Positions 43,655 to 47,934 of a DNA stretch of 64,000 nucleotides are shown piece after piece. The DNA is from Spirochaetota bacterium (lineage in GTDB: Bacteria > Spirochaetota > UBA4802 > UBA5550). Within the stretch, counting starts at the first letter, position 1, and each line of letters begins with the position of its first letter. Position numbers and translations under genes: made by a program. Location: contig JAGNKX010000001.1 in NCBI GenBank assembly GCA_017999915.1, positions 620,001 to 684,000 on the forward strand. Direction: 5' to 3'. Below the pieces are notes generated by a model, which saw only the letters and a program-made list of their open reading frames with translations, was not told the origin of the DNA and did no database searches.

Positions 43655-43683
43655 TTGAAAATTTTGGATATCAGTGTTATTAT
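43655..43683 (+). promoter_or_regulatory. Predicted promoter of the aminotransferase cassette
   Basis: TTGAAA (43655-43660), 17-bp spacer, TATTAT (43678-43683), about 70 bp before the aminotransferase start. The rest of the 312-bp gap (43444-43755) is AT-rich and shows nothing else I can identify. Confidence 0.58.
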
Positions 43684-43755
43684 AACTTTAAGGTTTTGAT
43701 TGTTAATGATACAGTACCGTTGTGAATCTCATTGTATGGCTTCATGGATTGAATA

Positions 43756-44985
43756 ATGAGCACAAAGAAACAAATCACCAAACTATATGCCAACCATGTT
43801 TCACCGGGGAAAGCGGATATCTATACAAAATATGATATGGTGCTTATCCCGGGGAAAAGAATCGGGCCTTTCCTGTATGATATTGACGGCAAGCAATATA
43901 TCAATTGCCACAGCAACGGCGGTGTTTTCAACCTCGGCCATCGCAATCCTGAAATAATTCGCGTCATAGAGCGGGCAATGAAAACCTATGATATAGGTAA
44001 TCATCATCTCATAAGCGAACCGAAGGCTCTCCTGGGAAAATTGATTTCGTCGATTATGCCGAAGGGATTGAACCAGGTCGTGTACGGGGTGAGCGGCGGT
44101 GAGGCTGTCGATTTCGCAATAAAATTTGCCCGAGGCGTAACAGGCAGGCCCGACATTATTTCGGCACAGGGAGGATATCATGGCCACACGGGCCTGGCCA
44201 TGGCTGCCGGAGACGGTAAATTCAGAGACAAATTCGGGCCAACTACTCCAGGATTCCAACAGGTTCCGTTCAATGATGTGGAGAGTATTGAAAAAGCGCT
44301 GTCGGATAAAACCGCGGCAGTAATATTCGAAACAATTCCCGCAACATTAGGCATAGTCGTTCCGGACAAGAAATTCTATAGCCGGGTGAGATCACTGTGC
44401 GATGTCTGCGGGGCGCTGCTCATTCTGGATGAAATCCAAACCGGCTTTGGGAGAACCGGAACCATGTGGGGGTTTGAGCATTTTAAGGTGGTGCCGGATA
44501 TCGTTACTCTGGGGAAGGGTATGAGCGGAGGTCTATACCCTATCAGCGCCACAGTGTATCAGGAGAAATATGCCGGATTTCTTCGCACGGATCCATTTGT
44601 CCATATTTCAACATTCGGAGGAAGCGAAATAGGGTGCTGCGCCGCCATGGAGGTAATCCGCATTAGCAGGCGTAAGGCCTTCCTCAATCATGTGTCCAGA
44701 ATGGCGGAATTTTTCAATGAAGGTCTGAAGGGATTATCGATAAAATATCCTTCATTGAAGCTCAGAATCAGGGGAATGGGACTCATGATGGGCCTGGAAT
44801 TCAAGGATGAAGGAACAGCCTTGTTGATGATGAAGCTATTATTTGATCAAGGGATATATCTGGTTTACTCCGGAAATGATCCGAAGGTTCTTCAATTCAT
44901 GCCGGTGCTGACTATTACAAAGAAGGATGGGGAGGAGGTTCTGAAACGCATGGATCATGCATTTGCCAAAATGGGAGGTCTCTAG
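43756..44985 (+). CDS. Class III (PLP-dependent) aminotransferase
   Basis: 409-residue ornithine/GABA/glutamate-semialdehyde-type aminotransferase. [20 protein letters not shown] and [12 protein letters not shown] form the N-terminal domain, [18 protein letters not shown] the phosphate-binding region, and [15 protein letters not shown] holds the PLP-pyridine Asp225. [15 protein letters not shown] holds the Schiff-base Lys254. The substrate is unknown. The family consensus Ser-Gly-x-Glu-Ala is present. The next gene starts 3 bp after the stop, so these are clearly co-translated; together with the following two genes it forms a cassette (see findings). Confidence 0.9.
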
Positions 44986-44988
44986 GCG

Positions 44989-46512
44989 ATGAAGAGGAAT
45001 GATAATAAGGGCGATCATCTTATAGAATTACTGAAGAATATCGACCTGGCCTATGCATTCAAGAAAAAAAGGCTGCGCTATATCCAGTATGCATCGAAAA
45101 GCAAAGAAATACAATCTCTCCGGGATAATTTTCAGGACCTATGGACAAAAAAGGGGAATCTTAATTTTCTCAAAGATCCGGAATTAACTCAGAACAGCAT
45201 AGAAATTTTAATGGGTTTATTCGGCGATAGCGATATGGCTGAATATATGCTGAACTGCGACATGGCACTCGTTAACATTGACTGGGGTGAAATCAATGAG
45301 TTTTTGAATCTGCATATAGCCAGTGAAACTGCCCGAAAAAACTTGATGTCAATACTAATGGAAGGAATAGACTCTCTGGTTGAACTCGCCCGAAGACAAA
45401 TACCATACTTTCAACGATACATCCCCACAATGAAGAAATTTATCGGCACCGATATATCTTTGGTGGGACTGACGGAAAACGATCTTGATAATTTGAGGCA
45501 TTTTATTGAAAGGATCGATGACGTTGCAGGTAATTTGAAAAATGATATTCAATGCTATAAAAAATTTGCAGCTGATTTTTTTACACTGTATCGCGAGAAC
45601 GCCGAAGTGACCGTTGTCGGTTATGGTGAAATTTCGACCGTTATGCGTTTAAATAAAAAAAACCATCTTCGCAGCGATATTATTGACAGTGAATCGAGAT
45701 GGATATGGAAAAAAATGCCGCCGTTTCCGACGATGAGCGAGGTTGATCGTTACATGCGACTGTATGAAATGTACAGGCATATTTTAATAGAAGATCTAGG
45801 CATTGCTGTTCCTGAACAAACAGCTCGGTATTTTAAGCATAATACATATTTTCTGGTCTATGCAGGCCAGGAGCGGGTCGATGAGAAATGCATTGGTAAT
45901 GCGCTGATCAGAAGATTAGATGAAGTGAATGCCGTTCATTTGTTGGAAAAAGTGCTGAAAAAACTGGTAGATGTCCATGTGTTTAACAAAAAAAATACAG
46001 AGATAAACATAGGTATAGATGCCCAATTTTCAAACTGGGTGCTGGTCTCGCAAACCGGCTCATTGCATGGTATTGCTGATAGTGATACGGTGACATACAT
46101 TGACACAAGCTCTCCCATGATTCGGATACGGGGAATAGAACAGGTAAACACCGAGATTTTTATAAAGAGCGCAGCTTCATTTCTTCGACCGTTTATTCGT
46201 GCCTTTTTTTTGCAGCAGGTCCTCGACAGGTATTATGATCTTCGATCGGTGGTCATCGATATTATCGCAAATCTCTACAAGGAAAAAAGGGCGGATCTTA
46301 TCGATAGTTTTATCCAATCAACAAATTCATTTTTCAAGAACGCGGGGGTTGTCGTTAAGGATATAAACAGGAAGGAGATTGATGCGTATTATTCCAATGA
46401 TGCGTTCATCTGGAGATTCTATCAGGCCTCCCGAAAGATCGATCGCTTTGTGACTGAGAAAATCTTGAGAAAACAATACATGTTTAGGATCCCTGAAGCA
46501 ATAGAACGATAA
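44989..46512 (+). CDS. Unknown protein with protein-kinase/aminoglycoside-phosphotransferase-like motifs (DUF6206-like)
   Basis: 507 residues, no signal peptide. The first 200 residues are helical and unlike anything I recognise. From residue 209, VVGYGEISTVMRL looks like a glycine-rich nucleotide loop. WIWKKMPPFP (Lys241/242) could be the ATP-binding lysine, and GIDAQFSNWVLV (Asp344, Asn349) resembles the catalytic loop D-x4-N. TYIDTSSPMIR (Asp372) resembles the metal-binding DFG-type aspartate. The order and spacing suit a kinase-like fold, and I believe this matches DUF6206, though that is recollection. GGAGGT lies 9 nt before the ATG, inside the aminotransferase 3' end. It is sandwiched between an aminotransferase and a C69-type hydrolase; possible roles are phosphorylation of a small molecule or ligation. 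Confidence 0.65.
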   Translation: MKRNDNKGDHLIELLKNIDLAYAFKKKRLRYIQYASKSKEIQSLRDNFQDLWTKKGNLNFLKDPELTQNSIEILMGLFGDSDMAEYMLNCDMALVNIDWGEINEFLNLHIASETARKNLMSILMEGIDSLVELARRQIPYFQRYIPTMKKFIGTDISLVGLTENDLDNLRHFIERIDDVAGNLKNDIQCYKKFAADFFTLYRENAEVTVVGYGEISTVMRLNKKNHLRSDIIDSESRWIWKKMPPFPTMSEVDRYMRLYEMYRHILIEDLGIAVPEQTARYFKHNTYFLVYAGQERVDEKCIGNALIRRLDEVNAVHLLEKVLKKLVDVHVFNKKNTEINIGIDAQFSNWVLVSQTGSLHGIADSDTVTYIDTSSPMIRIRGIEQVNTEIFIKSAASFLRPFIRAFFLQQVLDRYYDLRSVVIDIIANLYKEKRADLIDSFIQSTNSFFKNAGVVVKDINRKEIDAYYSNDAFIWRFYQASRKIDRFVTEKILRKQYMFRIPEAIER

Positions 46513-46536
46513 TGCAGCGCATAATCGGAGGTGCCT

Positions 46537-47934
46537 ATGTGCGACACCATGGTGTCCACGCCGGTTTCATCGGCTGATAAAGCAATGATAGTGGGAAAGA
46601 ACTCGGACAGGGAGCCGAACGAGGCTCAGAATATTACATTCATTCCTGCCATGGATCATCCTGGTGGAGCCAGGGTGCAGTGCACCTATATCACTATCCC
46701 GCAGGTAAAACATACCTGCGCTGCCCTTCTCTCAAGACCGTTCTGGATGTATGGCGCTGAAATGGGTGTGAACGAGTATGGCGTTGCCATCGGCAATGAA
46801 GCTGTGTTTACTAAAGAGAAATATCACAAAAAAAATGACGCCCTGCTGGGCATGGACATGTTACGGCTGGCGCTGGAAAGATCTCGAAACGCGAAGGGAG
46901 CCATTGATGTCATTATTGATTTGCTTGATAGATATGGTCAGGGCGGCGTTCATACAATGGGTGGGACCAAGTATTATCACAATTCATTTATCGTTGCTGA
47001 TCCTATGGAAGCTTACGTTTTTGAATCCGCGGGAACACAATGGGTTTACAAAAAAGTTACAGATGTCGCCTCAATATCCAACTGCCTTACCATAGAAAGT
47101 GATTTTGACAGAACATCATACAATGTTGGCGCGGGGCACAATAATCGGAACGTGACAAATCATGGGCAGCTTTTTAATTTCAAGGAAATTTTCAGTGATA
47201 GACTATACACTTACTTTGCTCGGGGAAAAGTGAGAAAGTCCTGCAGTTTTGACATGCTGGCTTCGAAGAAGGGCTCAATTACCAGCAGCGATATGATGAA
47301 AGTTCTCAGGAGTCATAACATGATAGAGCCGTATCAACCCGGGAAAAGACCTATGCAAGGGATATGTTTGCATGCCGGTGGGCTCATTTCGTCGCAGACG
47401 GTGGGGTCCATGGTGGCGGTTTTGAAAAAGGGACGGCCCCCTCTGGTATATTTTACCGGGACATCGGCTCCATGTATGGGCATATTCAAGCCCCATACGA
47501 TTGAGAAAAATCAAAAAAAAATGCATTTTGGGTGTCAATCCCGTCCATCGCCTTTCGGGGGATTTGACATATATGGCTCAGCATCGTCATCTTTTGACGA
47601 ATCAACTCTCTGGTGGACCGGTGAGGTAATACATCGCCATGTACTGATGAACTATTCTTCCCTGATGCCGTTAATTCAATCAAGGAGGAATGAGATTGAA
47701 AGCCGTATTATAAGTTCTGTAGAAAAGAAATGGAATACCAGCAGCAGTAAGGATTTCTCGAAAATCTGCAATGGTTATGCTGAAGAATTATTAAAGTTGA
47801 ATAATGACATTTCAGAAATTATTAAGAAAGAATCTCCTATTTATGCAAACAAAAAGGAAGTTTCCCGGTGGTTTGCCACTCAATGGAATAGCATTAATTC
47901 AAAAGCTGGATTTATCTTCTCGGAAAGAGAGTGA
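46537..47934 (+). CDS. C69-type (secernin/dipeptidase-like) Ntn hydrolase
   Basis: 465 residues. The N-terminus MCDTMVSTPVSSADKAMIVG puts Cys at position 2, which becomes the N-terminal nucleophile on Met removal, as in secernins and peptidase family C69. GKNSDREPNEAQ and GVNEYGVAIGNEAVFTKE are strong family motifs, as is SFIVADPMEAYVFESAG. I take ATG 46537 because GGAGGT lies 4 nt upstream and the Cys falls at position 2; a GTG two codons earlier would bury it. There is no signal peptide, so it is cytoplasmic. It follows the kinase-like gene by 24 bp. It would cleave an amide or dipeptide bond; no substrate can be named. Confidence 0.88.
   Translation: MCDTMVSTPVSSADKAMIVGKNSDREPNEAQNITFIPAMDHPGGARVQCTYITIPQVKHTCAALLSRPFWMYGAEMGVNEYGVAIGNEAVFTKEKYHKKNDALLGMDMLRLALERSRNAKGAIDVIIDLLDRYGQGGVHTMGGTKYYHNSFIVADPMEAYVFESAGTQWVYKKVTDVASISNCLTIESDFDRTSYNVGAGHNNRNVTNHGQLFNFKEIFSDRLYTYFARGKVRKSCSFDMLASKKGSITSSDMMKVLRSHNMIEPYQPGKRPMQGICLHAGGLISSQTVGSMVAVLKKGRPPLVYFTGTSAPCMGIFKPHTIEKNQKKMHFGCQSRPSPFGGFDIYGSASSSFDESTLWWTGEVIHRHVLMNYSSLMPLIQSRRNEIESRIISSVEKKWNTSSSKDFSKICNGYAEELLKLNNDISEIIKKESPIYANKKEVSRWFATQWNSINSKAGFIFSERE

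Follow-up and report, generated by a model that had tools for sequence, protein, structure and literature searches.

A cassette of a class III PLP enzyme, the kinase-fold protein DUF6206 and a secernin-type hydrolase, possibly serving the catabolism of a hydroxylated amine

The cassette described here lies in a window of 64,000 nucleotides from a Spirochaetota bacterium (GCA_017999915.1, contig JAGNKX010000001.1, positions 620,001 to 684,000) and is composed of three open reading frames, all on the plus strand: a class III pyridoxal phosphate (PLP) enzyme of 409 amino acids (43756..44985), a kinase-fold protein of 507 amino acids belonging to Pfam DUF6206 (44989..46512), and a 465 amino acid N-terminal nucleophile (Ntn) hydrolase of the C69 or secernin type (46537..47934). 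The intergenic gaps, 3 bp and then 24 bp, are those given in an earlier note made from the sequence of the window, and the coordinates of the reading frames agree with them. We read the cassette, with a probability of about one half, as a module of catabolism, acting on a hydroxylated primary amine held in an amide.

In the proposed pathway the secernin-type hydrolase, its cysteine bared by removal of the initial methionine, would cleave the amide and release the free amine, for which an amino alcohol (ethanolamine, 1-amino-2-propanol) or a hydroxylysine-like amino acid are the candidates; the amide would be that of an amino alcohol or, as the other obvious option, a hydroxylysine peptide. DUF6206 would then phosphorylate the hydroxyl of the amine with ATP, K241 holding the nucleotide, D344 acting as catalytic base and N349 and D372 binding magnesium. 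As the third step, the PLP enzyme would form an aldimine with the amine and eliminate phosphate and then ammonia, leaving an aldehyde; it would act like the ethanolamine-phosphate and phosphohydroxylysine phospho-lyases without close sequence kinship to them. The weakest step of this scheme is the choice of lyase over transaminase chemistry, and the next weakest is the substrate.

Fold and active site of the DUF6206 protein

The middle protein, left unrecognised in the earlier note only for want of a Pfam search, matches DUF6206 (PF19709) over residues 247-485, scoring 57.7 bits where the cut-off is 30.4. This is the sole Pfam family reported for it at E<=1, with no match to the APH family PF01636. 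No paper naming DUF6206 was found in the literature search, and searches of PDB sequences found no solved structure that matches it.

An AlphaFold2 model built from an alignment of 88 sequences reached a mean predicted local distance difference test score (pLDDT) of 91.3, the single-sequence model having given 33.9, and on this model a kinase fold can be assigned confidently to residues 201-507. Two strands (206-212 and 217-222) surround the glycine-rich loop GYGE (residues 211-214; 45619..45630), and are followed by the strand 238-242 with the ATP-site lysine K241 (45709..45711), helix C, two strands and the hinge. After the hinge come helices D and E, the catalytic loop D344...N349 (DAQFSN, in the family DxQxSNW; 46018..46035) and the metal-binding D372 at the position of the DFG aspartate, within YIDTSSP (46102..46104), which is the order of a kinase. 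In the alignment G211 is kept in 86 of 88 sequences and G213, E214 and K241 in all 88, while D344, N349 and D372 are present in each of the 87 sequences that reach that far. The earlier note had picked out these residues together with Lys242; their invariance shows the prediction to have been correct, except that position 242 is mostly Arg across the family. The window protein also has a confidently modelled helical N-terminal domain (residues 1-200; 44989-45588), which among the genomes searched is confined to the window's own order; elsewhere the protein is of about 320 amino acids.

Comparison with solved structures agrees with the kinase-like fold that the earlier note had expected from structure prediction and Foldseek. 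In the Foldseek search protein kinases rank first (probability 1.00), and with VIA-align the nearest structures over residues 202-507 are members of the kinase superfamily with Z of 9-11.5, where differences under 1 are ties: the aminopropanol kinase 6ef6 (11.4), PsiK (11.4), the choline kinase LicA (10.4) and an ethanolamine kinase (9.3), together with APH(2''), AmiN and PRPK/Bud32. The small-molecule enzymes of this group would suit a DUF6206 that is a small-molecule kinase, with phosphotransfer as its predicted activity.

That PRPK/Bud32, a protein kinase, ties at equal Z as best match speaks against this assignment, and would fit a regulatory role for DUF6206, as a protein kinase or pseudo-enzyme that controls its PLP partner, the secernin co-occurring for unrelated ecological reasons. 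The commonest arrangement, a pair of PLP enzyme and DUF6206 with no linked secernin, fits such a role too. We nevertheless regard it as unlikely, since the catalytic set is complete and invariant, which argues against a pseudokinase, and APH-family small-molecule kinases replace DUF6206 beside the PLP enzyme and beside the secernin, as described below. Somewhat more doubtful still is a biosynthetic or conjugate cycle of the kind proposed in the earlier note, in which the kinase-fold protein would activate a carboxylate or an amine so that an amide can form, the conjugate being cleaved later by the C69 enzyme. The operon does combine an ATP site of the kinase fold with an amide hydrolase, and two loci have genes of the D-Ala-D-Ala-ligase type in their operon chain; against this, neither ligase nor acyl-carrier genes recur among the neighbours, and the nearest folds move phosphate to hydroxyls, not acyl groups. 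The VIA-align list held no ligase or acyltransferase fold, though such a fold is still possible.

The PLP enzyme and parallel assemblies with other kinases

The assignment of the first gene to class III, already made in the earlier note, is borne out by the Aminotran_3 match (PF00202; 5.2e-86). In the family alignment all PLP contacts are kept; Y141-H142 is invariant, and D225 and the PLP lysine K254 (44515-44517) are each present in 29 of 29 sequences. What the window enzyme lacks is the Glu-Arg switch of the 2-oxoglutarate type of enzyme, represented by ornithine aminotransferase (OAT), ArgD and YgjG. In OAT the pair Glu235/Arg413 handles the carboxylate of glutamate or 2-oxoglutarate. The gate Glu of YgjG (EPIQGEGG) is replaced in the family by Thr (ETIPATLG; T197, 44344-44346) and its Arg (IRIEPPL) by Gln (Q380, 44893-44895), each in all 29 sequences. 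Both Glu and Arg are present in an ArgD-like paralogue of the same genome, and the kinase-less paralogues checked mostly have them as well, one of the six being divergent. The solved phospho-lyases are also without the pair, with Thr and Lys in 5g4i and Cys and Lys in 6tor.

Several points tell against lyase chemistry. The window enzyme scores 320 bits to the putrescine aminotransferase YgjG versus 193 bits to the phospho-lyase 6tor, and for this reason we do not file it in the phospho-lyase family. Its gate Thr is as in 5g4i, but its C-terminal switch residue is Gln where the phospho-lyases have Lys, and the T/Q combination is probably one ancestral change within the PLP clade. Other class III aminotransferases that do not use 2-oxoglutarate are also without the Glu-Arg pair, so that its loss is no proof of a lyase. 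The enzyme may instead be a true aminotransferase with pyruvate or another acceptor in place of 2-oxoglutarate, DUF6206 phosphorylating its substrate or product and the amidase supplying or trimming the amine, in which case transamination would serve a catabolic or a synthetic route. YgjG and, at about 283 bits, ArgD are its nearest solved relatives, the full set of PLP-site residues is kept, and in some Chloroflexota-type loci a gene of the 4-hydroxyphenylacetate-3-hydroxylase / 4-hydroxybutyryl-CoA dehydratase family adjoins the pair, which would fit a substrate like gamma-aminobutyrate. The switch is, however, gone throughout the family, and the counterpart in Thioclava is an enzyme of the phospho-lyase type; we hold a true aminotransferase to be possible, if on balance rather improbable.

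The Thioclava counterpart is found on two plasmids, which carry in one gene run an amidase, a secernin-type C69 hydrolase, an APH-family kinase and the PLP enzyme, which is of class III. On another two plasmids of this genus that were inspected, only the amidase, secernin and kinase are present. The one Thioclava C69 protein compared is 37.6% identical to that of the window, and the PLP enzyme of the first plasmid scores 345 bits to 5g4i and 327 bits to 6tor, the next solved protein reaching 171 bits. Pseudomonas sp. MPC6 carries a T/Q PLP enzyme like that of the window with an APH-family kinase gene behind it, and a choline transporter gene is nearby. The Thioclava and Pseudomonas kinases match the APH profile, unlike the window kinase. 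As a kinase of another family thus replaces DUF6206 beside either partner, DUF6206 is read as a small-molecule kinase and the whole set as kinase, phospho-lyase and amidase. In Phyllobacterium and Mesorhizobium the T/Q PLP enzyme adjoins a phosphodiesterase of the alkaline-phosphatase superfamily, and in Phyllobacterium it is also near phosphonate-type genes.

The earlier note had proposed a small pathway that makes, activates and cleaves an amino-acid conjugate or dipeptide. A three-step small-molecule pathway is supported by the present data; its direction is more likely to be catabolic, because the PLP enzyme is without the Glu-Arg pair and that of the parallel cassette is closest to the phospho-lyases.

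Linkage and co-occurrence of the three genes

When 84,980 species genomes were scanned, 304 DUF6206 relatives were obtained; the locus counts refer to the best 80 of them, which span Spirochaetota, 'Deltaproteobacteria', Chloroflexota, Actinomycetota, Acidobacteria, Aminicenantes, Myxococcota, Archaeoglobi, Thorarchaeota and others. The PLP enzyme is present within the fetched locus in 76 of the 80, a rate which, the loci being the best matches, is not an unbiased estimate. It is normally adjacent to DUF6206, about four fifths of the loci having it upstream and the others downstream, and the genes are usually separated by less than 30 bp or overlap. The recurrence beyond close relatives that the earlier note had proposed to look for is thus found in many bacterial and archaeal groups. 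Within 247 Spirochaetota genomes DUF6206 occurs in 22, one of these being a doubtful short match, and the PLP enzyme adjoins it at every locus with enough contig; in an even draw from a second phylum the two adjoin in 8 of 11 genomes. A universal pairing is ruled out by the other three genomes of that phylum, where DUF6206 is unlinked from the PLP enzyme. An apparent DUF6206 fusion of 866 amino acids in genome G350 was rejected as a spurious frame, the PLP enzyme lying just upstream in another frame. Tandem pairs of class III aminotransferase paralogues (L173, 6550-9718; L174, 6456-9475; L180, 6731-9552) occur in the window's genome and in genomes with an unlinked DUF6206.

A C69 gene lies within the fetched flanks of 19 of the 80 loci, in several phyla, and the gene orders, with SC for the secernin, AT for the PLP enzyme and DU for DUF6206, are SC-AT-DU, AT-DU-SC, AT-DU-x-SC and convergent. 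The intervening gene x, in two Syntrophaceae, is of the glycerate-2-kinase type (DUF4147/MOFRL; L118:6964-8349 and L121:6999-8348). At the level of whole genomes a secernin homologue is found in 19 of 21 Spirochaetota genomes with DUF6206 versus 28 of 226 others (Fisher 1e-13) and, in the second phylum, in 10 of 11 versus 9 of 187 (Fisher 5e-11), often on a different contig from DUF6206. It is also present in 26 of 50 further DUF6206 genomes, which are mostly draft metagenome-assembled genomes. In a genome of the window's genus (G122, locus L137; C35, 7760-8988) synteny and the secernin are kept, the PLP gene is missing beyond codon 32 and DUF6206 is gone, so that a single deletion removed the first two genes jointly; the C-terminal part of this secernin is frame-shifted or degenerate.

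The distribution does not favour the catabolic module in every respect. The secernin is linked in only about a quarter of the loci, the pair without it being the commonest arrangement, and many genomes carry a secernin without DUF6206; the co-occurrence tests are uncorrected for phylogeny, and the three genomes with DUF6206 unlinked from the PLP enzyme count on the same side. No aldehyde dehydrogenase or transporter is recurrent beside DUF6206.

The hydrolase, known systems and other neighbours

The match of the third protein to Peptidase_C69 (PF03577) is marginal, 24.5 bits against a cut-off of 23, and the nearest solved structure is a C69 dipeptidase (E 0.07). Residues C2, D3, T4 and K21-R25 are invariant in 21 relatives, the nucleophile Cys2 (46540-46542) being kept in 21 of 21. 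An in-frame GTG is found at 46531; the start at 46537, ATG-TGC with GGAGG ahead of it, places the nucleophile at position 2, and a protein starting Met-Cys needs no propeptide cleavage. The C69 Ntn hydrolase named in the earlier note is retained as to family, and we take the protein, by recognition, to be a secernin-type enzyme and not a classical dipeptidase, the domain search having covered C69 only. With the secernins (SCRN1-3; MEROPS C69) it shares the C69 Ntn architecture and the N-terminal nucleophile and differs in its Met-Cys start, the likeness to the human proteins being a putative one.

The substrates of the human secernins are unknown and were called elusive in a review (PMC9140057). 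Two human enzymes that belong with C69 to one Ntn subfamily, acid ceramidase and NAAA, cleave fatty-acid amides, which to judge by the enzyme names are those of sphingosine and of ethanolamine, respectively (PMC9140057); such cleavage would suit an amino-alcohol amide as substrate of the C69 enzyme. The tie of the secernin to a kinase and a PLP enzyme turns the question of the orphan hydrolase into a short assay panel, and the cassette gives a testable clue to secernin function. More speculatively, DUF6206 might be a new small-molecule kinase family which together with its own phospho-lyase clade makes up a bacterial and archaeal pathway, the secernins, with SCRN2 and SCRN3 as human orphans among them, being its amidases on amides of amino alcohols or hydroxy-amines; we offer this wider proposal as tentative.

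The individual enzyme classes are already known, whereas in the literature searched no description was found of the DUF6206 family, of its fixed pairing with a distinct PLP clade or of the recurrent secernin. DUF6206, a domain of many bacteria and archaea, is hereby provided with a fold, with an active site that does not vary and with fixed partners. Two known pathways, both cited in PMC8154272, serve as precedents: in one, ethanolamine kinase is paired with ethanolamine-phosphate phospho-lyase, in the other hydroxylysine kinase with phosphohydroxylysine phospho-lyase. Like the window set as read here, these combine a small-molecule kinase of the kinase fold with a class III PLP enzyme that has lost the Glu gate and carries another residue for the C-terminal Arg, and the PLP enzyme of the Thioclava cassette is of their type. 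The window set differs in its kinase, which is DUF6206 with no APH match in Pfam, in its separate PLP clade with Gln instead of Lys, and in the addition of a secernin-type amidase. If the proposal is true, the kinase and ammonio-phospholyase logic of ethanolamine and hydroxylysine breakdown extends to a separate set of proteins.

The RMM/Aaum (1-amino-2-propanol) microcompartment of Mycobacterium and Rhodococcus has an aminotransferase-annotated gene and a kinase-fold phosphotransferase (PMC6620236; PMC4207490), and an aminopropanol kinase, 6ef6, is among the folds nearest DUF6206. In contrast, microcompartment shell genes are absent from the recurrent neighbours listed round DUF6206, and neither DUF6206 nor a secernin was found mentioned for RMM loci in the passages of the two sources consulted. 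PbfA, the (R)-1-hydroxy-2-aminoethylphosphonate ammonia-lyase, is another class III 'aminotransferase'; its recurrent gene neighbourhoods led to its recognition as a lyase, and the amine on which it acts bears phosphorus (PMC8154272). It has a phosphonate substrate and no kinase, and by NCBIfam score it is not the nearest relative of the window enzyme.

The cassette has no conserved fourth gene, as each Pfam family seen among the 78 operon-chain neighbours is limited to three of them at most, and the standalone secernin loci show no common partner gene. Small support for the catabolic module comes from a glycerophosphodiesterase gene that follows DUF6206 directly in one related family, and from a gene of the S45 penicillin-amidase type which in four Chloroflexota-type loci (L084, L103, L123 and L124) lies upstream of the pair, the Pfam match being seen in two of the four; this Ntn hydrolase is possibly another amidase in the place of the secernin. 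An FMN (flavin mononucleotide) reductase accompanies the S45 gene in most of these loci.

The promoter which the earlier note had predicted 5' of the cassette (43655..43683, plus strand; TTGAAA-17-TATTAT, 10 of 12 matches, extended TG) is a weak site and does not stand above chance, the region containing 19 promoter-like sites against 14.5 +/- 3.1 in shuffles. An HpaB-family gene, perhaps by its sequence a 4-hydroxybutyryl-CoA dehydratase, is located directly downstream of DUF6206 in two loci (L120:2296-3753 and L124:7030-8487), and the same position is occupied by a DUF1846 gene in two deltaproteobacterial loci (L066:7086-8600 and L085:7080-8594).

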